From NCBI GenBank assembly GCA_015228925.1, contig JADGCQ010000015.1, positions 1 through 48,547 on the forward strand: a stretch of 48,547 nucleotides of DNA, given 5' to 3'. The DNA comes from Magnetococcales bacterium (GTDB taxonomy: Bacteria; Pseudomonadota; Magnetococcia; Magnetococcales; UBA8363). This document shows positions 208-18,500 of the stretch, piece after piece (position 1 is the stretch's first letter; each line of letters opens with the position of its first letter). The notes below the pieces were generated by a model. It did not search any database. It saw nothing but the letters and a program-made list of their open reading frames with translations, and was not told where the DNA came from. Position numbers and translations under genes: made by a program.

Positions 208-2874
208 TCAACCATTCTTCAAAGCGGCCTGGGCAGCGGCCAAACGGGCAACAGGAACCCTGTAGGGGGAACAAGAAACATAATCCAACCCCACCGACTC
301 AAAAAAGGTGATGGATTCGGGATCACCACCATGCTCACCGCAGATGCCCAGTTTGATCCCAGGACGTTTCTCACGCCCTTTCATGGCCGCCATTTTGACC
401 AACAATCCCACCCCGAATTGATCGATACTGACAAAAGGATCCTTGGCAAGCAGATTTTTACGTACATATTCCTGTAGGAATGGACCCGCATCGTCGCGTG
501 AAATACCCATGGTGGTTTGGGTCAGGTCATTCGTGCCAAAAGAGAAAAACTCCGCATGAACCGCCAATTCGTCTGCCGTCAGGGCGGCCCTGGGCAACTC
601 AATCATGGTACCAATACGGTATTCCAACTGAACCCCGGTCTCTTGAATGACCCTCTCACAAACCGCAACCGCTCGATCTTTCAAATATTTGAGTTCGGTC
701 TCTATACCAACCAACGGAATCATGATTTCTGGAGTGATGAGAAAACCCTCGGATTTGATCAGATGGCAAGCCGCCTCCATCACCGCTTGCACCTGCATTT
801 CGTAGATTTCCGGGAAACTGATACCAAGACGGCAACCACGATGCCCCAGCATGGGATTGAATTCCTTCAGACCCTCAACCCGCTGCCTGACTTTTTCGAC
901 AGGCATACCGAAGACCAGTGCCACTTCGCTTTGCCCCTCCTCATCGTGAGGAATAAACTCGTGCAATGGTGGATCCAAGAGCCGAATGGTGACTGGGAAC
1001 CCGCGCATTTCACGGAACAATCCTTCAAAATCAGCACGCTGCAAAGGGAGAATCTTATCGATGGCCCGACGACGATCGGCATCGGTTTCGGAAAGGATCA
1101 AACCGCGCATATGAATGATACGGTCTGCGCCAAAAAACATGTGTTCGGTACGACACAACCCAATCCCACGCGCCCCAAAACCACGGGCGGTACGTGCATC
1201 ATCCGGGGTATCGGCGTTGGCACGGACCGTCATCCGGGTAAATCCATCCACCCACTCCATGAAGGTGGAAAAATCTCCAGATAGTTCAGGATTTTGCGTA
1301 GGAACCTGTCCCAACATCACCTCTCCGGTGGAACCGTCGATGGTCACCCAGTCACCTTTGTTGACCACGACGCCTCCCATGGTGAACAGTTCTTTTTCCA
1401 TATCAATGGAAAGACCAGAACAGCCCGAGACACAAGGGCGGCCCATCCCACGGGCTACCACCGCCGCATGGGAGGTCATGCCGCCGCGAGCGGTGATGAT
1501 CCCCTTGGCCGAATGCATGCCATGGATATCTTCGGGACTGGTTTCATCGCGCACCAACATGACCATTTGTCCTGCGGCAGCCCATTGTTCCGCTTCGTCT
1601 GCCTCAAATACCACCTTACCCGTTGCCGCCCCTGGAGAGGCTGCCAACCCTTTGCCCAGCACCTGCTTTTTGGCTTTTGGATCCAAGGTAGGGTGGAGCA
1701 ATTGATCCAGTGATTCCGGTGCCACACGGGATACCGCCTCACGGGTATTGATTAATCGCTCATGAACCATATGTACCGCAATTTTCAAGGCCGCCTTGGC
1801 GGTCCGTTTGCCATTGCGCGTTTGCAGTAACCAAAGTTTATTGCGTTGTATGGTAAACTCGATGTCCTGCATATCCCGGTAGTGTGTTTCCAGCCGCTTT
1901 TGGACGGCATAAAGTTCTTTGTACAATTCCGGCATCGATTCTTCCATGGCCGGTAGGTTGGAACCATTGAGGTTTTTCCCTTCAATGGTAATCTGCTGCG
2001 GGGTGCGAATACCGGCCACAACATCTTCCCCCTGGGCATTGATGAGGTACTCACCGAAAAACCTGTTATCCCCTGTGCTGGGATCCCGGGTAAAAGCGAC
2101 CCCGGTGGCGCAATCATTGCCCATGTTGCCAAACACCATGGCCTGTACATTGACGGCGGTACCCCAGGTTTCTGGGATGTCATTCAAACGGCGATAAGTG
2201 ACCGCCCGTGGAATGGTCCAGGAGTTGAACACCGCTCCGATGGCCCCCCACAATTGATCCTGGGGATCTTCTGGGAAAGGTTTTCCGGTCACTTCCAATA
2301 CTTTGGCCTTGTATTTTCCTACCAAGGTTTTCCATTCATCCGCCAGGACCGAGGTGTCTTCCGTTTTGCCCGCCTGTTCTTTCATGTGACGCAGCATATG
2401 TTCAAAATGGTGGTGGTCAACACCCAACACCACATTGGAGTACATCTGAACAAATCGCCGGTAGGAATCATAGGCAAAGCGGGAATCATTGGACCGTTTG
2501 ATCATCCCCTGGACGGTGATATCGTTAAGACCCAGGTTTAAAACGGTGTCCATCATCCCAGGCATGGAAACTCTGGCCCCGGAGCGGACGGAGACCAGCA
2601 GCGGATTGTCTGGATCACCGAACTTGGCCCCCATCACCTTTTCAACTTCCGATAACGCCGCTGCCACTTGTTCTTTGAGTCCGTTGGGATAATCACGAAG
2701 TTTCAGATACAAACCACAGACTTCGGTACTGATAGTAAACCCGGCGGGGACAGGGATACCCAGGCGCATCATCTCTGCCAGATTAGCCCCTTTGCCACCC
2801 AAAAGATTTTTCATTCCCGAATCACCTTCGGCCCGGCCATCACCGAAGAAATAAACAAATTTCTGCTCAAACAT
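208..2874 (-). CDS. ppdK: Pyruvate, phosphate dikinase
   Basis: This 888-residue cytoplasmic enzyme interconverts pyruvate, ATP and Pi with phosphoenolpyruvate, AMP and PPi; the length is normal for the family. The N-terminal nucleotide-grasp domain starts with GGKGANLAEM near residue 28. The swivelling phosphohistidine domain carries GGMTSHAAVVARG near residue 460, whose His is phosphorylated. The C-terminal PEP-utilising barrel ends with GICGEHGGDP. The ATG at 2874 is preceded by AGGAGGAAGG at good spacing, which fixes the start. It is transcribed alone; the next gene upstream on the same strand is at most a tiny peptide gene. It probably works in gluconeogenic or PPi-linked central metabolism. 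A PEP synthase is excluded by the overall PPDK arrangement. Confidence 0.97.
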   Translation of the reverse strand: MFEQKFVYFFGDGRAEGDSGMKNLLGGKGANLAEMMRLGIPVPAGFTISTEVCGLYLKLRDYPNGLKEQVAAALSEVEKVMGAKFGDPDNPLLVSVRSGARVSMPGMMDTVLNLGLNDITVQGMIKRSNDSRFAYDSYRRFVQMYSNVVLGVDHHHFEHMLRHMKEQAGKTEDTSVLADEWKTLVGKYKAKVLEVTGKPFPEDPQDQLWGAIGAVFNSWTIPRAVTYRRLNDIPETWGTAVNVQAMVFGNMGNDCATGVAFTRDPSTGDNRFFGEYLINAQGEDVVAGIRTPQQITIEGKNLNGSNLPAMEESMPELYKELYAVQKRLETHYRDMQDIEFTIQRNKLWLLQTRNGKRTAKAALKIAVHMVHERLINTREAVSRVAPESLDQLLHPTLDPKAKKQVLGKGLAASPGAATGKVVFEADEAEQWAAAGQMVMLVRDETSPEDIHGMHSAKGIITARGGMTSHAAVVARGMGRPCVSGCSGLSIDMEKELFTMGGVVVNKGDWVTIDGSTGEVMLGQVPTQNPELSGDFSTFMEWVDGFTRMTVRANADTPDDARTARGFGARGIGLCRTEHMFFGADRIIHMRGLILSETDADRRRAIDKILPLQRADFEGLFREMRGFPVTIRLLDPPLHEFIPHDEEGQSEVALVFGMPVEKVRQRVEGLKEFNPMLGHRGCRLGISFPEIYEMQVQAVMEAACHLIKSEGFLITPEIMIPLVGIETELKYLKDRAVAVCERVIQETGVQLEYRIGTMIELPRAALTADELAVHAEFFSFGTNDLTQTTMGISRDDAGPFLQEYVRKNLLAKDPFVSIDQFGVGLLVKMAAMKGREKRPGIKLGICGEHGGDPESITFFESVGLDYVSCSPYRVPVARLAAAQAALKNG

Positions 2875-3373: not shown

Positions 3374-3790
3374 ATGATCCTACACCCTCAAAAAAAAACG
3401 ACCAGACCAACCTGTCATAACAACCCGGATTCCAATACCCATTCCACGGGCGGGCATCCCCGGAAAAAGCTGGAGTCGCACCTCTCTTTATGGATCAGCG
3501 TGATAACCTGGGGTTGTCTTTTCTGGCTTCTCGATAGGGTGAAATCGGCAATGCCCGAACCCAGTACCTTTTTTACCCGAGTGTTTGAATTGAATGTGCG
3601 ATCCACTTGGGATATGCAGCGGGTGTTGGAATCGACAACATGGATGCTGGTGTTGGCACTGGTTTCTTTGATCAATATGGTTATTGGCGTAGCCCGAAAT
3701 GGCGGAAAATACCGAACACCAGAGATAGCGTCCCTGATTTTGGCTGGAACTGCCTGCGCTCTTGCCTTATGGCTGATGCGTGTGGAATAA
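3374..3790 (+). CDS. Small membrane protein, unknown function
   Basis: This encodes 138 residues. A polar, Lys/Arg/His-rich head of about 38 residues is followed by a membrane segment (about 40-58, SLWISVITWGCLFWLL), a loop, then two further hydrophobic segments (about 88-106 and 117-134). The pattern is that of a small inner-membrane protein with three helices. No known family is recognised. The ATG at 3374 has no clear ribosome site, and a later start would remove the first helix, so the start is uncertain. It is followed by two hairpins and converges on the transporter gene. The hydrophobic pattern argues for a real gene rather than chance. Confidence 0.6.
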   Translation: MILHPQKKTTRPTCHNNPDSNTHSTGGHPRKKLESHLSLWISVITWGCLFWLLDRVKSAMPEPSTFFTRVFELNVRSTWDMQRVLESTTWMLVLALVSLINMVIGVARNGGKYRTPEIASLILAGTACALALWLMRVE

Positions 3791-3907: not shown

Positions 3908-5275
3908 TCAATGGCTAGCCGGTGCCAGAGGGGTGGTCGGAACACCCATCTCCATTTGGACTGGCTGAACTTGTTCACTTTGGTTGCGTTCCGCCGTCGG
4001 ATGCCAACCGGCAATAGACATCATGAGAAAGAATCCAACGGTGTACGCCAGCGTGACATGCCAACCATGGCGGAGCCAGTTACCAACCGATTTGGCTTCG
4101 GGAAAGGTGTTGGAAAGGGCAACACCGGCGGAAGATCCAAACCAGATCATCGAACCACCAAATCCCACGGAATAGGCCAGAACCCCCCAATCATAGCCCC
4201 CTTGTTTGATGGCCAAGGCGGTCAAGGGGATGTTATCAAAAACAGCCGAAACATAACCCAACCCGAGAGCGGTCTGCCAGGAGGCCAGAGGGAGCTTTTC
4301 TACAGGCATCAAAGAGGCACAGACCACTAGGGAGAGGAGGAAAATAGTCCCTTTGAACGTTTCCGGCATGATTTTCCATTCGGGAGTCCGCACAAAAGCG
4401 GACAGCAGTAACGCGACCCATACCCCGACACCGATGAACGGGAACGTGTCGGAAATTTCGTTAAACTTGATATTGACGACCATGTTGACGGCAATGGCCA
4501 CAATCAGAATGAACGCGACGATGGCGACCCGTCCACCATCAACTTTGATGTTGATGGCGTGATCGGCCTTGATCGGAGAATGTTTATCCTGTTGCAAGGC
4601 GGCGGGAATGCCACAAATCAACAGCGCGAAAAATGCACCGGCATACGCATGGAGGACGGCTGAAGGGGCAATTCCGGCGATCCACATCATGGTCGTCGTG
4701 GTATCTCCCACCACACTCCCGGACCCCCCCGCATTGGATGCGGCGACGATCCCGGCCAGATAGCCAACGTGGACTTTGCCACGAAAAACCGCTTTGGCAA
4801 CCGTTCCACCAATGAGTGCCGCAGCAATATTATCCAAAAAGCTGGAAAGGACAAAAACCAAAGCCAACAAAACAAAGCCTCCCTTCCATCCTTCCGGCAG
4901 AAAACGGGGGAGAAGATCGGGCACCTTGCTGTGTTCAAAATGGTTGGAGAGCAAGGCAAATCCCATCAGCAAACAAAACAGGTTGGCCAGAATCACCCAT
5001 TCATGCTCAAAATGCTGCACCAACCCGGTTATCCCTGTCCCATGCTTGAACCCGGTAAAGATCAGCTTGTAGAGGACGATGGTTGCCACCCCTGTCAGGG
5101 CCACCTGCAAGGTGTTGTTGTGGAAAAGAGCCACCCCCAACAGCACCAGTGCAAATAGGATAAAATCCAGCGGAATGCCGAACAGCGACGGCCCATCAAC
5201 CCCAGTGGTGGAACTAGCCCAGGCGGTGGCTGGAGCAAGCACCGCCGCCAACAGAAAAAAGAGAAATCGTTTCAT
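3908..5275 (-). CDS. NhaD/CitMHS-type Na+/H+ antiporter-like transporter
   Basis: This 455-residue inner-membrane protein belongs to the ion-transporter superfamily that includes NhaD antiporters and citrate carriers. I start it at ATG 5275 because MKRFLFFLLAAVLAPATAWA is a typical signal peptide and AAGG lies upstream; a longer frame adds 20 unlikely residues. It has roughly 11-13 hydrophobic segments. The stretch NAGGSGSVVGDTTTTMMWIA closely resembles the NhaD signature with its ion-binding Asp and Thr residues, and SSFLDNIAAALIGG is the matching first half-repeat motif. Sodium/proton exchange is therefore the best guess, with citrate or another carboxylate as alternatives. It stands alone, with a 300-base AT-rich region upstream that probably holds its promoter. 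Confidence 0.82.
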   Translation of the reverse strand: MKRFLFFLLAAVLAPATAWASSTTGVDGPSLFGIPLDFILFALVLLGVALFHNNTLQVALTGVATIVLYKLIFTGFKHGTGITGLVQHFEHEWVILANLFCLLMGFALLSNHFEHSKVPDLLPRFLPEGWKGGFVLLALVFVLSSFLDNIAAALIGGTVAKAVFRGKVHVGYLAGIVAASNAGGSGSVVGDTTTTMMWIAGIAPSAVLHAYAGAFFALLICGIPAALQQDKHSPIKADHAINIKVDGGRVAIVAFILIVAIAVNMVVNIKFNEISDTFPFIGVGVWVALLLSAFVRTPEWKIMPETFKGTIFLLSLVVCASLMPVEKLPLASWQTALGLGYVSAVFDNIPLTALAIKQGGYDWGVLAYSVGFGGSMIWFGSSAGVALSNTFPEAKSVGNWLRHGWHVTLAYTVGFFLMMSIAGWHPTAERNQSEQVQPVQMEMGVPTTPLAPASH

Positions 5276-5576
5276 GCCATGTGACCTTATTGGAGTTGAA
5301 TGAAAAATATTGGGGAAATTCGGAAAGCACCGCATGTTCAGTAAAGTAGTGCTAAATCATTGATTTGTAAACATTAAAATAGTGTAAAACACGATTATGA
5401 TATTTTTTAAATATCTCCTATATATAATAAAATACACTATATATTTGTAATATTTACCGCTAAGAAGACATATAATTCATATTAATTTTATCTTTATGCA
5501 GAACGCCCATCTCAGGAGGTTCTGAACGGAAGTGATGGACTATCGACCCGTTTTGACCATCACAATCATGATCCGA
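5276..5576. other. AT-rich intergenic region upstream of the transporter
   Basis: No gene seen. The stretch 5340-5500 is far more AT-rich than its surroundings, with several TATA-like hexamers, and most likely contains the transporter promoter and the 3' end of the preceding operon transcript. No specific site could be assigned. Confidence 0.4.
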
Positions 5577-6278
5577 TCAACGGACAAGACGATAACCAAT
5601 GCCTGTTTCTGTCATAAGGTGTTTGGGGTTGGAAGAATTTTCCTCGATTTTTCGCCGAAGTCCTGCCATGAAAACCCTGAGATAATGCGGCCTTTCCACA
5701 TAGTCAGGCCCCCAAACCTTTTGCAAAATAAACCGATGGGTCAACACCAACCCCACGTTGGCTACCAGCAAAGTCAATATCTGATATTCGATCGGTGTCA
5801 AATGGACCGGAGTGCCACCACGACTGACCCGGCGATGTACCATATCGACCTGGACATCCCCAAACTCAAAAATTCCCCCCTCATTGTCCTCATGACCATC
5901 ACGGCGTGCCCGCCGCCGCAACACGGCACGGATGCGCGCATGTAATTCGGGGACTCCAAAAGGTTTGGTCAGATAATCATCCGCACCCGCATCCAAAGCC
6001 GCCACTTTCTGCATCTCCTCGGTACACACCGATAGCACCAAGATGGGAATTTCACACCAAAGTCTAAGCTCCCGGATGACATCGACCCCATCCCGGTCCG
6101 GCAAACCCAAATCCAGAATGATCAAATCGGGACGGCGTGAGGCGGTCTCCATCAGCCCCTGTTGCGCCGTTTCCGATTCCCATACTTTGAAGCCATTGGC
6201 CGATAAGGCCATGGCCACGTAGCGACGAATCATCTTTTCGTCTTCAATCAAGACCACACTCTGTTGCGGTTCGCTCAT
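5577..6278 (-). CDS. KdpE-like (OmpR-class) response regulator
   Basis: This 233-residue DNA-binding regulator has an N-terminal receiver domain (about 8-120) and a winged-helix output domain (about 135-230). The acidic pair is in LIEDE, the phosphoacceptor is Asp56 in LIILDLGLPD, and the conserved Lys is in YLTKPFG. Overall it resembles KdpE most. Its ATG overlaps the stop of the kinase gene by four bases (ATGA), so the two are translationally coupled and very likely form a pair. No kdpFABC potassium pump genes lie nearby, so the target genes are unknown and the kdpE symbol is withheld. Confidence 0.9.
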   Translation of the reverse strand: MSEPQQSVVLIEDEKMIRRYVAMALSANGFKVWESETAQQGLMETASRRPDLIILDLGLPDRDGVDVIRELRLWCEIPILVLSVCTEEMQKVAALDAGADDYLTKPFGVPELHARIRAVLRRRARRDGHEDNEGGIFEFGDVQVDMVHRRVSRGGTPVHLTPIEYQILTLLVANVGLVLTHRFILQKVWGPDYVERPHYLRVFMAGLRRKIEENSSNPKHLMTETGIGYRLVR

Positions 6279-7798
6279 GGACTCACCTCTGTATCACAAA
6301 TAACGGTGGGTGGTTTACCCAAGGGGAAAATAATCTCAAATTTTGCTCCGCCCTCTTTTCTATTTTCAGCACGGATGCTACCGCCATGCGCCCGTACCAC
6401 GGCGCGAACAATGGAAAGACCCAATCCGACGCCACCTGTGCCCGCAATGGTTTTCCCATGGACAAACTTGGAAAATATGGCCTCCTCCTGACCTTGGGGA
6501 ATCCCCGGGCCATTGTCCATGACATGCACCACCACCCCTTGCTCAGCGACATGGGCCGCCAGTTCAATACGACTGCCAACGGGTGTATGACGCGCCACAT
6601 TTTCCAACAAATTGCGGAAAACCCGCTCCACCATGGTGGCGTCCATCTCCAACAATGGAATATCACTCCCCATGGTGACATCAATGATATATCCCCGCAA
6701 AACATCGCCGCTGGTTTTGAGTGCCGATCCCACCACCTCTTCCAAGACCTGCCATTCCTTGTGCAAGGTGACACTATCTTGGTGAAGACGCGCCATATCC
6801 AGCAATTTATCGACATCCGACAAAATTAGGTGTATCTGATCCCTGATGCCACCCAACATGATCTGGTGCGTTTGGGGTAATGGGGGAAAACTCCATTGCA
6901 TCGCATCCGCCATCCCTGCCATGGCCGCAATCGGCGTGCGCAAATCGTGAGAAAGGCTTGCCAACAAGGCATTACGCAACCGTTCCGAATCAATCTCCAA
7001 CAAGGCCTTGCGTTCTCTGGCGGCATAACTCAACCGTTCCAAAACCAATCCCATAAACGTAACACACATGCGTAACAAAGATTCCTGTTCCCCAGACAAA
7101 ACCCCGTCTGTCTGTTTCAAGGTTAACACCATGATCCCTTGATTTTTTTCACTTCCCTGTAATGGAATATAGAGGGAACCGTCCATCAAACAGGTACGAA
7201 AATCGGGCAAGGTTCCCATATTTCCGTCGAAGATACGCTGTGCCCAAGGAAGGTTGACCCACGCGGACGGGTTTCCATCCACCGACAACTTGCCCGTGTC
7301 ATCGGGGAAAATTAACACACCATGCGCATCAAAATTATCCGAAACAAATCGGCGACATGGACGAATAATTTGATCCGGTGAGGCAATTCCCGTCAATTCC
7401 CCCGCCAATTCATAGAGTGAACGGATGCGTTGTTCCCGATTCTCGGCAATGACAACCTGATTCCGCAATCCAGACGCTAGATGGGTCGTAATCATGGCGA
7501 TCAGCAGCATCAAGGCAAGGGTCAGCAAATATTGAAGTTCGATGATCTCGAAGGATGAATGTGGCGGGACAAAAAAATAAAAATAGATCGCGATACTCAA
7601 AAAAGAGGCCAGAATCGAGGCCCTGCCATTGAGTTTGAGTGCCACCAAAAACACGAGAAACAGGTATACCATCAACACATTGACCATCAAAATATGGGCA
7701 TGCAATGGCAATAACAAAGCAGTGGTCATGCCGATCAGGGCAACCACCAACAACTCATCTTTCATCGCTGTGAGTATGGCGTACTGCGGATTTTCCAT
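6275..7798 (-). CDS. Sensor histidine kinase, short KdpD-like (DUF4118-GAF-HisKA-HATPase)
   Basis: I take ATG 7798 as the start (507 residues), with AAGGA upstream. Membrane helices between about residues 15 and 110 match the DUF4118 region of KdpD, including FFVPPHSSFE. A GAF-like region follows (about 130-255). The HisKA motif is SLSHDLRTPIAA with phosphorylated His284, and the ATPase domain shows DNGPGIPQG and GLGLSIVRAV. The large KdpD N-terminal part (nucleotide-binding and USP-like domains, several hundred residues) is absent, so it should not sense K+ the way KdpD does. It lies 17 bases after the larger kinase and overlaps the regulator gene by four bases. Confidence 0.88.
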   Translation of the reverse strand: MENPQYAILTAMKDELLVVALIGMTTALLLPLHAHILMVNVLMVYLFLVFLVALKLNGRASILASFLSIAIYFYFFVPPHSSFEIIELQYLLTLALMLLIAMITTHLASGLRNQVVIAENREQRIRSLYELAGELTGIASPDQIIRPCRRFVSDNFDAHGVLIFPDDTGKLSVDGNPSAWVNLPWAQRIFDGNMGTLPDFRTCLMDGSLYIPLQGSEKNQGIMVLTLKQTDGVLSGEQESLLRMCVTFMGLVLERLSYAARERKALLEIDSERLRNALLASLSHDLRTPIAAMAGMADAMQWSFPPLPQTHQIMLGGIRDQIHLILSDVDKLLDMARLHQDSVTLHKEWQVLEEVVGSALKTSGDVLRGYIIDVTMGSDIPLLEMDATMVERVFRNLLENVARHTPVGSRIELAAHVAEQGVVVHVMDNGPGIPQGQEEAIFSKFVHGKTIAGTGGVGLGLSIVRAVVRAHGGSIRAENRKEGGAKFEIIFPLGKPPTVICDTEVSP

Positions 7799-7815
7799 CA
7801 ATTTTAAGGAATCCT

Positions 7816-9771
7816 TTACCCGACAGGGAGGATGATCTCCAACACGGTCCCCCGCCCAGGATGACTTGAACACTGGATGGTCCCTCCCAGAGTTTGCGTC
7901 ACCAGATTATAAACAATATGCATCCCCAAACCGCTCCCTCCACGACTGCGCGCCGTTGTAAAAAAGGGTTCAAAAATGCGCAACCGATCTTCCTCCTCCA
8001 TACCACGACCGCTATCGGAGTATCGGAAAATAACGTTCCCTTCCACCTCTACAATCCTGAAAACGATATCCCCGGACACCATCTCATGAAAACCGTGCAG
8101 CAGGGAATTGATGACAAAGTTGGTGATAATCTGCGAAAAAGCACCCGGATAACTATCGATTTCCAAAGTTTCGGGACAATCCACGGTGACCTTGTGTTGC
8201 GTTTTCTTCAAGTGGGGACGCAAACTGACCAGCGTTTGTTGAATACATTCAGCCAAGTAAAAACGGCGTCGCTGCTCATGGGTACGATCCACGGCTACCT
8301 GTTTGAAACTGCGCACCAGTTCCGCAGCCCGGTTTAAGTTTTGCAAAATCATCTGCGTTGATTCAACCACATCCTTAAAATAAGCCTCCAATTCCGATTT
8401 ACGGAGTGTCCCTTGGGCAAAGTGATCGGCACATCGCACGCTTTGCTGTCGCAGGTAGGACGCCGCCGTCACCCCCGAACCTACCGGAGTATTGATTTCA
8501 TGGGCAACCCCGGCCACCAGGTTACCCAACGACGCCATCTTCTCCGACTCCACAAGCTTTCCTTGTGTACTTTTGACCACTTCGAGGGATTGCCGCAATG
8601 CTTCATTGGCTTTCTGCAACTCTTCCTGACGTGTTTGTTCCCGCTGTCGTGAATGGAGAATCTCCTGAATCATCCATTGAAACTGTTCCCCCATGATCAA
8701 AAGTTGATCACCAGCGGCCACTGTCTGTTTTTTGATCCCTAGTTGTCCGATGGCGGCATCGATCATCCCTTCAGTAAATATCTTTAATCTTCTTGTCAGA
8801 TAATAGACCAGAAGAAAAAATATAATCGTCAGTGCGCCATAGCCAATGGCAAGATGTGTTCGCTCACCGCGGACAATGGAATTGCTTAACCGATCCATTT
8901 CAGCCTTTTCAACCAGTGTGGCAAAATGAATGGGGATATCGATGGAAAAATCATAATCCAAAAATTTTTTTCCAAAAATGGCAAATTGAGGGGTTAATTC
9001 CTCCATTGTCATCCCCGTCGATATGCGGTCGGGACGACTGCTGGCAAAAACCCGGTTGGTTTCGCCGTTAATCAAGGCGACAACGTTGCTTGAATCGGAC
9101 CGTCTGTGAAACAACGATAAAAAATCATCATTTAAGGGAACCACAAAAACTAGGAAAGCCTTGGGATTTTCCGAGGCTTTGTGCCCAGAGATGCCGCTGA
9201 CATTGATCAGATAAATGATTCCCTCATGAGCGGCAATATGGGTGTGTCCAGCGGTATTGAGCAAACGGGGGAGAAAATACGCCAGAACGGTGTGGGGTAA
9301 AGGGGGCAGTTCGGTCCCCTGGAGATAAATCTCTCGCACCCGTTTGTGCGCGTCTAGCAATAGCACGTAGGGGGCGGCAATCAGGTTTCGTGTTACGGAC
9401 GGGGGGGGCAACCAGGATGGGCGATGATCGGTCAATAAAATCGGTTCTCGGTTGGGATGGGCTGCCCAATCTTCCTGCATCCATGCGACCCGATGAACCA
9501 ACGATGCCAGATAAGAGAGGAGCCGAACCGCTTGCTCCTGTCCCCGAAGATAGCCATCAAACAAAAGGCGATCACGTTGTGCCTGCGCCTCAAGATTGGC
9601 CAACTGTTCTTTCTGAAAGATTTCCCTGACCAGCACCGTCTGCCAAACATCGGCGATCAACCATAACAGCCCCCCCATGACCACCGAAACAACCAACGCT
9701 TTGGTTGTCAAGGTTGTTCGCCGCCACAGTCTATCCCAGACAAGGGGAAGATTGACCAACCCAGCCGCCAT
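7816..9771 (-). CDS. Membrane sensor histidine kinase with large periplasmic domain
   Basis: ATG 9771 (651 residues) shares one base with the TGA of the binding-protein gene, which indicates coupled translation. A membrane helix at about 25-47, a periplasmic region of about 260 residues with a Cache-like feel, and a second helix at about 306-327 are followed by a coiled coil. The HisKA segment AGVAHEINTPVG contains His424; the ATPase domain shows FVINSLLHG (N box), DSGRGMEEED and GSGLGMHIV. No receiver domain is attached. Its likely input is the co-encoded periplasmic binding protein. Since only one regulator follows two kinases, it may phosphorylate the KdpE-like regulator, modulate the second kinase, or act on a distant partner. 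Confidence 0.88.
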   Translation of the reverse strand: MAAGLVNLPLVWDRLWRRTTLTTKALVVSVVMGGLLWLIADVWQTVLVREIFQKEQLANLEAQAQRDRLLFDGYLRGQEQAVRLLSYLASLVHRVAWMQEDWAAHPNREPILLTDHRPSWLPPPSVTRNLIAAPYVLLLDAHKRVREIYLQGTELPPLPHTVLAYFLPRLLNTAGHTHIAAHEGIIYLINVSGISGHKASENPKAFLVFVVPLNDDFLSLFHRRSDSSNVVALINGETNRVFASSRPDRISTGMTMEELTPQFAIFGKKFLDYDFSIDIPIHFATLVEKAEMDRLSNSIVRGERTHLAIGYGALTIIFFLLVYYLTRRLKIFTEGMIDAAIGQLGIKKQTVAAGDQLLIMGEQFQWMIQEILHSRQREQTRQEELQKANEALRQSLEVVKSTQGKLVESEKMASLGNLVAGVAHEINTPVGSGVTAASYLRQQSVRCADHFAQGTLRKSELEAYFKDVVESTQMILQNLNRAAELVRSFKQVAVDRTHEQRRRFYLAECIQQTLVSLRPHLKKTQHKVTVDCPETLEIDSYPGAFSQIITNFVINSLLHGFHEMVSGDIVFRIVEVEGNVIFRYSDSGRGMEEEDRLRIFEPFFTTARSRGGSGLGMHIVYNLVTQTLGGTIQCSSHPGRGTVLEIILPVG

Positions 9772-10784
9772 CAAGGCTCTCCGATCAGCTCATCTTCCCG
9801 AAACTTCCAACCTGTTTTTTTCAACGCCGCCGCAGGGACCACATGATGGTCTGGGTCGATTCGTCCCGCGTTGTTCATCAGGAATTGGACCAATGCGTGG
9901 GCTTTTGGGTTGAACGTGTTGGCCGCCGTCCAGGTGGAGACATTATAAACCCAATAAAAGGGGTAGTGTCCTGAACTGACCGCGTTGGCATCCCTGGGAT
10001 CGACGCCATCGATTTTGATCACTTTGACCAAACGTTTGTATTGAGGTTCTTGGACAAGCTGCCAATTTTCTATATAACCGAGCGCACCTGGATTTTTCCC
10101 AACTTGGACAACCATATCAAGAATGGACCCCACTTCGTTGGTCTGCGGTCCAAACATATCTTCGTTATCCAAGATTAAACGCCAGTGTCCTGGTCGCGTT
10201 TTACAATGCAACCGCGTCACCGGACGGATCGGAATATCCTTGCCAAACAGTTTGCCAACCTCTGGAATTTGTGACCAACGGGTCAGTTTTCCCTGGAAAA
10301 TTTTTCGCACCTGTTCGGAAGTCAGGTGATCCACGGGGTCGGAAGCATTCACCAAGAGGGCCATGGGGGAAATTCCAATGGTATGCCAAGCCAATCCTGG
10401 TAGGCGATCCATCTCCCCGGCGGGACAACAGGAACCACCTACATCCACCTCTTTACGTACTACCCCCTCGGCGGCAGGACCGCAAGTGCCTTCACGAACC
10501 GACACCTTGATATGGTTTACTTTGGCAAATTCCTCCACCAGCGGCGTCAACCCAGGATAGATGTTTTGGTCCAATAAAAGTGCCACATCGACTCCGGCAT
10601 CTTTGTCCCTGTAACGAATAGGTCGATCAAGCCACTCCTGCGTTTGTTGGCTGATCTCTTCGGGATTGGAAAACGCCTGCCCCTTCAACACACTGGGCGC
10701 ATCCATTTCTCCCCACACTTGCGCTGGGGCAGTGATGACAAACCAGGAAAAAACTAATAAGATAAAACCAAAAGTACGATTCAT
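9771..10784 (-). CDS. PstS-like periplasmic substrate-binding protein
   Basis: ATG 10784 follows a G-rich ribosome site and begins a signal peptide (MNRTFGFILLVFSWFVITAP, likely cleaved near AQVWG). The 337-residue product resembles phosphate-type solute-binding proteins: LALLVN-type segments around GISPMALLVNASDPVDHLTS and the FQGKLTRWSQI motif are typical of the PstS/PBP-like group. Unusual are cysteines in GTCGPAA, GGSCCPAGE and RLHCKTR, which could form disulfides or bind a metal. There are no transporter permease or ATPase genes beside it; instead it is the first gene of an operon with two kinases and a regulator, so it is probably a sensing rather than a transport component. The ligand is unknown. 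Confidence 0.8.
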   Translation of the reverse strand: MNRTFGFILLVFSWFVITAPAQVWGEMDAPSVLKGQAFSNPEEISQQTQEWLDRPIRYRDKDAGVDVALLLDQNIYPGLTPLVEEFAKVNHIKVSVREGTCGPAAEGVVRKEVDVGGSCCPAGEMDRLPGLAWHTIGISPMALLVNASDPVDHLTSEQVRKIFQGKLTRWSQIPEVGKLFGKDIPIRPVTRLHCKTRPGHWRLILDNEDMFGPQTNEVGSILDMVVQVGKNPGALGYIENWQLVQEPQYKRLVKVIKIDGVDPRDANAVSSGHYPFYWVYNVSTWTAANTFNPKAHALVQFLMNNAGRIDPDHHVVPAAALKKTGWKFREDELIGEP

Positions 10785-11669: not shown

Positions 11670-13547
11670 TTACTTCGCCGTAAAGGTACCTTGAACACGG
11701 CTGAAGCTCGATGCCGTGCTGCTGTTCGCAGGGGTACCCGACAGGGAAATCCCGCTGAAGTCGATCGAATAGGCGTAGGAACCAGCACTGCTCGGACTCG
11801 TCAAGGCCGTAGCGAGAGTGGAACCACCTTTCGTCGTTGCTGTGTTAAACAACTCGGCGATTTGGAACTGCAAAGTACCCGCCTTGGAGGATTGGTTGGA
11901 GCCGGAAGAGGTCACCATCAAGCTACCCACCGAAGTGCTGGAAAGGGTCGCCGCCGAAGAGGACGTCGCCGTCGCACTGTAGTAGGTCACCGAGGCCCCA
12001 GTCGGTTGGGTCAGGGTCAAAGTCGTCCCATTGCTGCTCCAAGGTACGTTGAACGAAGCAGAGATAGCACGCTCACCAGAACTGCGGGTAGAGTCAGAGC
12101 CATCAATGAGAGACATGGTGATTCCCGCAGTACCCGACCCGGCAGGAACACTCTTCAGATTAAAGTTAACCACCGGCGGTGTGGCCGACGCACTGGTACT
12201 CGAACTTGCCAAAAGACTCAAGTTGGAGGCACTGACAGTGCTGGTCGAAGGCAACGACACAGTCAGGACGCTGGACGCAATGGATGGAGTCGAAGGGGTC
12301 AAAGTTGTTGCGGTATTGCTCGGATAGTCCGTCAACGTAATGGTGCTGAGCGTAACGTTGAAGGTGGAGGCATTCACGAACGCATTGTTGGCCGCAGAGA
12401 CATCCGCAGACAAGGCAGAAACCTTGCTGGAGTCAAAAGTCAACGGACGGCTGCTGACAGCGGTTGAAGTCGTAAGGTCCGAAGAAATACCCAACTGGGA
12501 AAGTGACGTTACATTGTAAAGGGCAAGAGTCGCCGTCTTGGCGTTATCCCACTGAGCCGTGGCAACCGTGCTGGCTTTTACGTTATCAAAGCTGGCGGTC
12601 GCATTCTTGTTGACCCCGGTAACGGAACTCTTGATGGCCGACAAGGCAGAGGTTGCGGTACCGCTCTGGTTGGTAACGTTCAAACCGCCGCTGGAGAAGA
12701 TTTCGTTAAGGACAAACAAGGCGTAAGACTGGGCGTAGGCACGGATACTGGCCATACTGAAGCCAGAGATGTCCGAACTGAGAGCCGTGGTACCCGAGTT
12801 GCCGTCCAGAGTGTTATCGGAAAGGTCTTTACCCAGGAGTTTGAAGATCGAGCCAATGTTGCTAGAGGAGACGCCACCAGCCTGCTTGGCGACGCGACGA
12901 ACGGTTTCCGAAAGGGATTCAGACGCTTGGATGAAGGTCGCGTAGTTGGTCGAACCCAACGTGGCGGTGATGGGGTTGAAGCTACTGGTCGTCGTCCCAT
13001 CGGTGTTGGAATCAATACCAAAGCCAAAGTTGCTAAGGACCGTGCTGGCACTGGTCGTGATGCTGCTGGCAACGTTGCTGGTGGTGATATTGGCAGCGGA
13101 CAAGCTAGCGGAATCCCCGACCAAAGCGTAGTAAATCAGGGTCGAGAAGGGCGAAATATTCGCAACCGACTGGCTGGTGGAACCAACGATGGAGCGCATG
13201 TTGGTCTGCGGAACCGTTACACCCATGGTGCTGTGTACGGAGTCGGTACCGCCCGAAAGCTCGATGGCCAGCGGCGGGGTACAGGTGCCAATGCTCAAGC
13301 TGAAGGTGGCGTCGGAACCTGTCGTCGTCCCAGCGGCAGAACATTTGGTGCCGTCAGCATTGTAGACGATGACGCTGGCACTGCCCACCGGGCCTTCAAC
13401 GGCCAGACCAGAGACAGAACCGGATGATGTGGAGGAAGAAGAGCTTCCACCACCGCCGCCGCAGGCAGCCACGCCAACGGTGAAGGCAGCAGCTAAGGTC
13501 AACATGGTTACTTTTTTGGACATGGTATTGAATCCCCAATGTTCCAT
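11670..13547 (-). CDS. Large Ser/Thr-rich lipoprotein, unknown function
   Basis: This encodes 625 residues. The ATG at 13547 has AAGGAG nine bases upstream; a second ATG eight codons later (MSKKVTML) would also give a signal peptide. LTLAAAFTVGVAAC is a lipobox, so Cys is lipidated, and the mature protein begins with GGGGG and a serine tract as a flexible tether. The remainder is very rich in Ser, Thr and Ala with many beta-strand-like stretches; the first part (about 45-130) resembles a carboxypeptidase-like or Ig-like beta fold. It has its own terminator and is well separated from neighbours, so it is monocistronic. It may be a surface-exposed structural or adhesion lipoprotein; no specific family is recognised. 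Confidence 0.8.
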   Translation of the reverse strand: MEHWGFNTMSKKVTMLTLAAAFTVGVAACGGGGGSSSSSTSSGSVSGLAVEGPVGSASVIVYNADGTKCSAAGTTTGSDATFSLSIGTCTPPLAIELSGGTDSVHSTMGVTVPQTNMRSIVGSTSQSVANISPFSTLIYYALVGDSASLSAANITTSNVASSITTSASTVLSNFGFGIDSNTDGTTTSSFNPITATLGSTNYATFIQASESLSETVRRVAKQAGGVSSSNIGSIFKLLGKDLSDNTLDGNSGTTALSSDISGFSMASIRAYAQSYALFVLNEIFSSGGLNVTNQSGTATSALSAIKSSVTGVNKNATASFDNVKASTVATAQWDNAKTATLALYNVTSLSQLGISSDLTTSTAVSSRPLTFDSSKVSALSADVSAANNAFVNASTFNVTLSTITLTDYPSNTATTLTPSTPSIASSVLTVSLPSTSTVSASNLSLLASSSTSASATPPVVNFNLKSVPAGSGTAGITMSLIDGSDSTRSSGERAISASFNVPWSSNGTTLTLTQPTGASVTYYSATATSSSAATLSSTSVGSLMVTSSGSNQSSKAGTLQFQIAELFNTATTKGGSTLATALTSPSSAGSYAYSIDFSGISLSGTPANSSTASSFSRVQGTFTAK

Positions 13548-16683: not shown

Positions 16684-18500
16684 ACAGAACTCATTATTGC
16701 AACGATGTCCGCGACCACCAGATTGGCCAGAGCGTGTGTCTTTCGGGTTGGGTTCACCGACGCCGTGATCATGGTGGGGTGATCTTTGTCGATTTGCGTG
16801 ATCGGACCGGGTTGGTTCAGATCGTTTTCAGCCCTGGGCATGAGGGGGAAGTTCACCGCCGTGCCCACGAACTTCGAAGTGAATATGTCATCGAGGTCCA
16901 TGGGATTGTCGCTCCGCGCCCCAAGGAGACGGAAAATCGCAATCTTCCCACCGGAATGATCGAGGTCAATGTGACACGGCTGGAGATTCTCAACACCTCC
17001 AAGCCGCTTCCGTTTCAATTGGATGATGAGGATGTCGGCGAAGGGGTGCGGCTCCAATATCGCTACCTTGATCTACGCACCCAAAAGATGCAAAAAAATC
17101 TTCAATTCCGCCATCGTGCCAACCAGTTGGTGCGCCGTATCCTGGATGAGGCGGGATTTTTGGAGATTGAAACCCCCATGTTGACTCGCAGTACCCCGGA
17201 GGGGGCGCGTGATTATCTGGTCCCCAGCCGTGTCAATCCGGGTCAGTTTTATGCTTTGCCGCAAAGCCCGCAGCTTTTCAAACAATTGCTGATGATTTCC
17301 GGGTATGACCGTTATTTCCAGATCGTCCGTTGTTTTCGGGATGAGGATTTGCGTGCCGACCGGCAGCCGGAGTTTACCCAACTGGATTTGGAAATGTCCT
17401 TCGTTGGACCGGAAGATATCATGGCTTTGACCGAAAAAGTGGTGGCAGGAATTTTCCACGGTGCCCTTGGCCGAGAGATACCGTTGCCGATTCCTCGGAT
17501 GACCTATGCCGAGGCGATGGACCGTTACGGTCTGGATGCCCCGGATGTCCGCATCCCGATGGAATTAAAAGAGATTACCGGCATCATGGCCCAGACGGGG
17601 TTCAAGGTGTTTGCCGACCAGGTTCGGTTGGATGACAAGGGGAGGTCTCGCGGGGTGATCAAGGTGTTGCGCGTCCCGGGGGGTGGGCAGCGTTTAAGCC
17701 GCAAGCAGATCGATGATTATACGGGATTTGTCTCTGTTTATGGGGCCAAGGGGTTGGCGTGGATCAAGGTGAATGGGCCTTGGCGTGAGGAGGGGTGGCA
17801 ATCTCCCATTGTCAAACATTTTTCCGATGCGGAAAAAGATGCCATCCAGGGGATTACCGAGGCCCAAGCGGGGGATTTATTATTTTTTGGTGCCGATACC
17901 GTCAAAATTGTCAACGAATCTCTTGGGCGGTTGCGGGTTCGGTTGGCCCGTGATCTGGATATGATCGAGGATAAACCGTTTTCGTTGGTGTGGGTCACCG
18001 ACTTTCCGCTATTGGATTGGGATGCGGAGGCAAAGCGTCCGGTTTCTGTCCATCACCCTTTTACGGCCCCATCGGTGGAAGATTTGGCGTTGTTGGAATC
18101 GGAGGATGTCTATGACCTCCTGAAGGTCCGTTCCAGGGCGTATGATCTGGTTTTGAATGGGATCGAGGTGGGTGGGGGATCGATCCGTATCCACGATCCG
18201 GCCATGCAAAAGCGGGTTTTGTCGCTTTTGAACATTGGTGCGGAGGAGGCGGATCGTAAGTTTGGTTTTCTATTGCAGGCGTTGGAGTATGGTGCCCCAC
18301 CGCATGGTGGTTTGGCCTTGGGGATGGATCGGTTGATGGCTTTGATGTTGGGATCGGAATCGATCCGTGATGTCATTGCCTTTCCGAAAACCCAAAAGGC
18401 GGGTTGTGCCTTGACTCAGGCCCCTTCCGATGTGGATGAACGTCAGTTACAGGAATTGCAATTGCGCCGGGTGGTTCGTCCGAAAGTGGAACCGACCTGA
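16680..18500 (+). CDS. aspS: Aspartyl-tRNA synthetase (possibly non-discriminating)
   Basis: This 606-residue class II synthetase has the bacterial architecture: OB-fold anticodon-binding domain (about 1-110), catalytic domain with motif 2 around FRDEDLRADRQPEFTQLD, a bacterial GAD insertion (about 290-420), and motif 3 HGGLALGMDRLMALMLG near the end. Residue 31 is His in RRRDHGGVIF; in the well-studied Pseudomonas enzyme a His here accompanies relaxed specificity that also charges tRNA-Asn, whereas E. coli has Leu. That hints at Asp-tRNA-Asn formation and a GatCAB route, but the amidotransferase is not in this window. It is coupled to the upstream SEC-C gene. Confidence 0.96.
   Translation: MNRTHYCNDVRDHQIGQSVCLSGWVHRRRDHGGVIFVDLRDRTGLVQIVFSPGHEGEVHRRAHELRSEYVIEVHGIVAPRPKETENRNLPTGMIEVNVTRLEILNTSKPLPFQLDDEDVGEGVRLQYRYLDLRTQKMQKNLQFRHRANQLVRRILDEAGFLEIETPMLTRSTPEGARDYLVPSRVNPGQFYALPQSPQLFKQLLMISGYDRYFQIVRCFRDEDLRADRQPEFTQLDLEMSFVGPEDIMALTEKVVAGIFHGALGREIPLPIPRMTYAEAMDRYGLDAPDVRIPMELKEITGIMAQTGFKVFADQVRLDDKGRSRGVIKVLRVPGGGQRLSRKQIDDYTGFVSVYGAKGLAWIKVNGPWREEGWQSPIVKHFSDAEKDAIQGITEAQAGDLLFFGADTVKIVNESLGRLRVRLARDLDMIEDKPFSLVWVTDFPLLDWDAEAKRPVSVHHPFTAPSVEDLALLESEDVYDLLKVRSRAYDLVLNGIEVGGGSIRIHDPAMQKRVLSLLNIGAEEADRKFGFLLQALEYGAPPHGGLALGMDRLMALMLGSESIRDVIAFPKTQKAGCALTQAPSDVDERQLQELQLRRVVRPKVEPT

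Follow-up and report, generated by a model that had tools for sequence, protein, structure and literature searches.

We analyzed a window of 48,547 nucleotides from a Magnetococcales genome (G000), whose closest named relative is Magnetococcales bacterium DCbin2. Four consecutive genes in this window encode a periplasmic binding protein (PBP), two sensor histidine kinases (HKA and HKD), and a response regulator (RRE). These genes and the neighboring features discussed here are as follows.

9771–10784, minus strand: PBP, a PstS-fold periplasmic protein with a signal peptide and conserved Cys101, Cys119, Cys120, Arg191, His193, Cys194, and His200
7816–9771, minus strand: HKA, a sensor histidine kinase with two transmembrane segments, a periplasmic domain of ~260 residues, and a HisKA and HATPase core
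8820–9655, minus strand: periplasmic ectodomain of HKA (approximately residues 40–320), common to PBP-adjacent kinases
6275–7798, minus strand: HKD, a KdpD-like kinase with a DUF4118 membrane part and a kinase part, lacking the KdpD/USP N-terminus
5577–6278, minus strand: RRE, a KdpE-like response regulator with receiver and winged-helix domains
3908–5335, minus strand: NhaD-like Na+/H+ antiporter, 240 bp downstream of RRE
3374–3790: gene for a 138-residue protein, near HKD-RRE
208–2874, minus strand: pyruvate phosphate dikinase (PPDK)

The layout of four overlapping minus-strand genes given in the initial annotation was confirmed base for base. PBP and HKA overlap by one base in TGATG, with HKA starting at the ATG at 9771 (an alternative in-frame TTG start lies one codon upstream, at 9774), 17 bases separate the end of HKA (7816) from the start of HKD (7798), and HKD and RRE share a 4-base ATGA overlap (6278–6275). 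Domain matches agreed with the gene identities assigned there (PstS-like, membrane kinase, KdpD-like, KdpE-like): PBP matched PBP_like_2 (E 1.2e-15), HKA matched HisKA and HATPase, HKD matched DUF4118, HisKA, and HATPase, and RRE matched Response_reg and Trans_reg_C. Catalytic motifs in both kinases and in the regulator appeared intact. Tight packing indicates that the four genes are probably co-transcribed, and they may therefore be functionally coupled. No PstB-like ABC ATPase gene was found within the window. Positions 11670–13547 encode a Ser/Thr-rich protein of 625 residues that has no Pfam match and in which glycines follow a lipobox-like cysteine; locus L073 encodes a weak relative at 17410–18000.

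Genomic context bore out the proposal that the binding protein serves signaling, not transport. PBP adjoined a two-component gene in 49 of 49 informative loci: among 50 loci, a kinase gene lay directly downstream in 44 (in one of them after an inserted gene), a receiver gene lay directly upstream in five, and the remaining one was at a contig edge. A phmmer search for PstB-like ABC ATPases within 6 kb of PBP found none in the 49 loci tested, and the control found five elsewhere. Nor was an attached pst or kdp transporter, which the initial annotation had named as counting against its reading, found in relatives.

The AlphaFold model of PBP was confident (pLDDT 89.8), and the nearest solved fold in Foldseek searches was PstS (best match 4exl, E 2.9e-18, TM 0.82 by target). 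Against the PstS-family profile TIGR02136, PBP scored 72.6 bits, below the cut-off of 206.6. Cys101, Cys120, Arg191, His193, and Cys194 were invariant in 41 of 41 Magnetococcales PBPs, and Cys119 and His200 were present in 40 of 41. In two alignments, by profile with S. pneumoniae PstS1 and by MAFFT with E. coli PstS, Cys101 fell at PstS Ser38 and Cys119 at Asp56, both phosphate contacts; the Ser and Asp ligand positions are cysteines in 41 of 41 and 40 of 41 proteins, respectively. A third loop, containing Cys194, lies within the phosphate Arg135–Thr141 region, where the exact register varies between alignments. Judged from these residues, PBP most likely senses a thiol-reactive ligand or a soft metal(loid) and would do so via HKA. 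Among 398 sampled Pseudomonadota genomes, strong matches to PBP outside Magnetococcales came from only three, all of one genus, and literature searches found no published account of this cysteine-containing PBP (Cys-PBP) family. A shorter, divergent subfamily (L138–L140) has the same Cys/His set: the motifs GCG, CCP, and PHC..RPxHW are kept at L138 8085–8966, L139 8916–9725, and L140 6970–8001 (GCD in L140), and the L139 protein adjoins large hybrid kinases.

Searches with a profile built from HKA residues 40–320 found the HKA ectodomain in every kinase directly downstream of PBP, whatever its kinase core. These PBP-adjacent kinases were of the HKA type, GAF-containing (L050), PAS-containing (L060 and L067), or large hybrids (L065, L070, L072, and L145), and the ectodomain was also present in three PBP-adjacent hybrids from another Pseudomonadota family (L135–L137). 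Because one ectodomain stands beside PBP across such different cores, the conserved unit is PBP plus ectodomain. Adjacent binding-protein and kinase genes may encode proteins that do not interact, and such pairs have been reported (PMC11113362); since the ectodomain is common to different kinases, however, we infer that docking of PBP on HKA is likelier than adjacency alone would make it. Pfam gave only weak CHASE4 matches for this domain, in 5 of 22 members, and Foldseek matches were dominated by the kinase cores.

Four of the five loci with a receiver gene upstream encoded no HKA-type ectodomain next to PBP. In L068, L073, L147, and L149, PBP follows a ~440-residue REC protein and no HKA-type kinase adjoins; the one such protein checked, from L068, is REC-PAS-GGDEF. 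Additional ectodomain proteins, about one per genome, are hybrid kinases and were not near a Cys-PBP in the seven loci read. Across several genomes, hybrid kinases of this kind (L154–L160, ~890–960 residues) have dynamin-like GTPase genes nearby, and such a gene adjoined in all four Pfam-checked loci. At L039 9910–12332 (G042), the HKA gene is split over two frames (residues 12–108 and 122–650), by either a frameshift or an assembly error.

The third gene after PBP-HKA encoded a regulator of the REC-DUF3369-HD-GYP type in 14 loci (10 full length), whereas no regulator came after HKA in about ten further loci where the sequence was long enough to tell. Characterized HD-GYP domains act as c-di-GMP phosphodiesterases. 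Orthologs of this regulator are 80% identical between G002 and G006, and kinases that share only the core of HKA also adjoin HD-GYP regulators (for example, G004 C65, G007 C202, G002 C1, and G006 C28). The third component found in many relatives is absent at the window locus, where RRE looks like the partner of HKD. An ortholog of the HD-GYP partner was not found in G000, G004, G007, G001, or G005, in which the best matches were paralogs of 37–54% identity, some at contig ends. Neither an HD-GYP gene nor a KdpE-like gene lies beside HKA in G001 and G005. A second PBP-HKA pair (L054 5989–6966, contig C111 of G000; L055 6049–7182, G004) is followed by a REC-DUF3369 protein without HD-GYP, the full-length form of which is present in G005 and G007.

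The four-gene order did not prove to be a conserved unit, an outcome that the initial annotation had itself named as speaking against its reading. In a survey in which 61 genomes were searched and 40 loci read, the order PBP-HKA-HKD-RRE occurred in three Magnetococcales genomes only (G000, G004, and G007), and its halves were separate in other relatives: PBP plus HKA was found order-wide in Magnetococcales, often in multiple copies, and HKD-RRE without PBP was found in ten relatives (G001, G002, G003, G005, G006, G010, G011, G026, G027, and G030). At the stand-alone HKD-RRE loci of G001 and G005, the genes for PPDK and for a 138- or 151-residue counterpart of the 138-residue protein adjoin HKD-RRE as they do in the window, which argues that PBP-HKA arrived at the HKD-RRE site. 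The four-gene order is therefore a derived state, and the PPDK neighborhood marks the ancestral HKD-RRE site. A single joining event is suggested by a DegT aminotransferase gene that G004 and G007 share ahead of PBP; gene trees neither resolved nor rejected a clade of the joined operons (p-AU 0.13 and 0.46). Between G000 and G004, the PBP-HKA pair is 88–89% identical with open frames.

HKD had been called a truncated KdpD-like kinase. Its alignment to positions 404–888 of the 895-position KdpD profile shows that the KdpD N-terminus is indeed missing, and the HKA-HKD interval has no room for it, but HKD is not a decayed KdpD gene: this form of 500–530 residues is stable and was found in 12 other genomes (13 in total). 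RRE scored 301.8 bits against the NCBIfam KdpE model, just under the cut-off of 325. The observation that no kdp pump lies beside the four genes was also confirmed; a complete kdp system, including KdpA and its own full-length KdpD and KdpE, is located elsewhere in the genome, on contig C153. HKD thus resembles KdpD in its membrane and kinase half, and RRE resembles KdpE, but HKD lacks the KdpD/USP N-terminus and no kdpFABC genes are attached. HKD-RRE is most likely a co-expressed, KdpDE-like paralog pair. We considered the NhaD-like antiporter as an ancestral target of RRE and rejected it: the gene adjoins RRE only in G000 and its nearest relative, G004 (the G007 contig ends before that point), and is missing at the same site in G001 and G005. 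A candidate KdpE-like site upstream of NhaD was also set aside, as the region is conserved with G004, a relative too close to be informative. Contig C153 also has a PstB-like ATPase gene (L114 15924–16763) close to the canonical kdp genes, and a more distant KdpDE-like pair in G002 (C112; L117 8009–12820) adjoins a TrkH potassium-uptake gene.

In two-component systems, known positions in helix 1 of the kinase DHp domain and in the first helix of the receiver determine partner choice. At offsets +7, +8, +11, and +12 from the phospho-histidine, the presumed specificity residues were G-S-T-A in HKA and A-A-G-M in HKD. The DHp segment of HKA matched those of HD-GYP-paired homologs, and HKD and RRE keep KdpD- and KdpE-type segments. 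The helix-1 segment of RRE, EDEKMIRRYVA, was identical in G000 and G004, where the modules are joined, and in G002 and G006, where they are apart; no presumed specificity residue changed after joining. These residues point, indirectly, to two insulated pairs.

We regard it as probable, and favor it as an explanation, that the locus combines two independent modules in one transcription unit, a PBP-HKA receptor pair and a KdpDE-like HKD-RRE pair. Secreted PBP would close on its ligand in a Cys/His-lined cleft at the place that phosphate occupies in PstS; loaded PBP would then dock on the HKA periplasmic domain and alter the activity of the kinase. For the majority of relatives with an adjoining regulator, the output would be the REC-DUF3369-HD-GYP protein and hence c-di-GMP. 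In the lineage of G000, the third gene was lost from the locus, and HKA therefore probably acts in trans on another HD-GYP-type regulator; the genome has HD-GYP-type receivers at C110, C111, C115, and C145. HKD and RRE, whatever signal HKD may sense, would retain their own partner specificity.

The initial annotation had proposed that two kinases feed one regulator. In such a dual-input circuit, HKA (via PBP) and HKD would both phosphorylate or dephosphorylate RRE, joining periplasmic chemical and KdpD-type ionic signals. Such a circuit would fit the persistence of a single overlapping cluster in three genomes that have diverged to different degrees, each without the HD-GYP regulator at the locus, but other relatives lack the order, the usual partner of HKA is an HD-GYP regulator, neither set of kinase specificity residues shifted in the joined lineages, RRE helix 1 is the same where the modules are apart, and G001 and G005 likewise lack HD-GYP beside HKA yet have no KdpE-like gene there. 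We consider this circuit unlikely. Slightly less likely again is that HKA has no present function and is carried beside HKD-RRE as an orphan or a kinase in decay, for although its usual partner gene has been lost and the regulator of the paralogous pair on C111 is shortened and lacks HD-GYP in both G000 and G004, every kinase motif is intact, as is the Cys/His set of PBP, and the pair remains open and highly similar to that of G004. Least probable, in our judgment, is that PBP is an ordinary phosphate sensor informing HKA, with structural cysteines. The PstS fold, and the arginine still present at one basic phosphate-ligand position in one alignment, would fit such a role, but replacement of the Ser and Asp ligands by cysteine, the profile score far under the PstS-family cut-off, and the presence of two better PstS candidates in the window genome argue against it.

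Several known systems resemble the PBP-HKA half of the two-module arrangement. TorT-TorS and LuxP-LuxQ likewise pair a soluble periplasmic protein with a membrane kinase, but they belong to other binding-protein and ectodomain families, and the usual third gene of PBP-HKA encodes a c-di-GMP-type response regulator. PBP resembles PstS in fold and profile similarity but differs in its cysteines at Ser38 and Asp56, in having no adjoining PstCAB, and in scoring under the NCBIfam cut-off. Together with other binding protein–kinase systems, the closest analogs are the three-component systems for arsenic oxyanions (AioX-AioS-AioR, ArxXSR, and ArrXSR), in which a binding-protein gene also lies beside a sensor-kinase gene, signaling occurs without a transporter, and a cysteine (C106 of AioX) lies in the ligand pocket (PMC5908839). 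AioX, however, is PhnD-like with one pocket cysteine, whereas PBP has a PstS fold (only PBP_like_2 in Pfam, with PstS matches in the PDB) and four conserved cysteines plus two histidines; the Aio output is a transcription factor, whereas that of PBP-HKA is usually an HD-GYP protein. No arsenic oxidoreductase genes were recognized among the domain-searched neighbors of PBP.

The sensor family defined by the cysteine site of PBP is a firmer finding than the four-gene circuit. We propose tentatively, at somewhat less than even confidence, that PBP represents an undescribed sensory family that has expanded in Magnetococcales and also occurs in another Pseudomonadota family. Its PstS site would have become a Cys/His site that detects either a soft metal(loid) or a reactive form of sulfur, with one conserved receptor ectodomain linked to interchangeable kinase and c-di-GMP outputs. 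The four-gene operon, for its part, shows two sensing modules becoming neighbors without evident rewiring. If the proposal is correct, a phosphate-binding fold would have been re-tooled for thiol chemistry and put to purely sensory use, raising the directly testable question of which soft ligand is bound. The pairing of PBP with its ectodomain would be a clean case of one conserved receptor plugged into many outputs. In magnetotactic-type bacteria of redox gradients, a genome would have as many as about five such copies, and these would feed c-di-GMP and two-component outputs.
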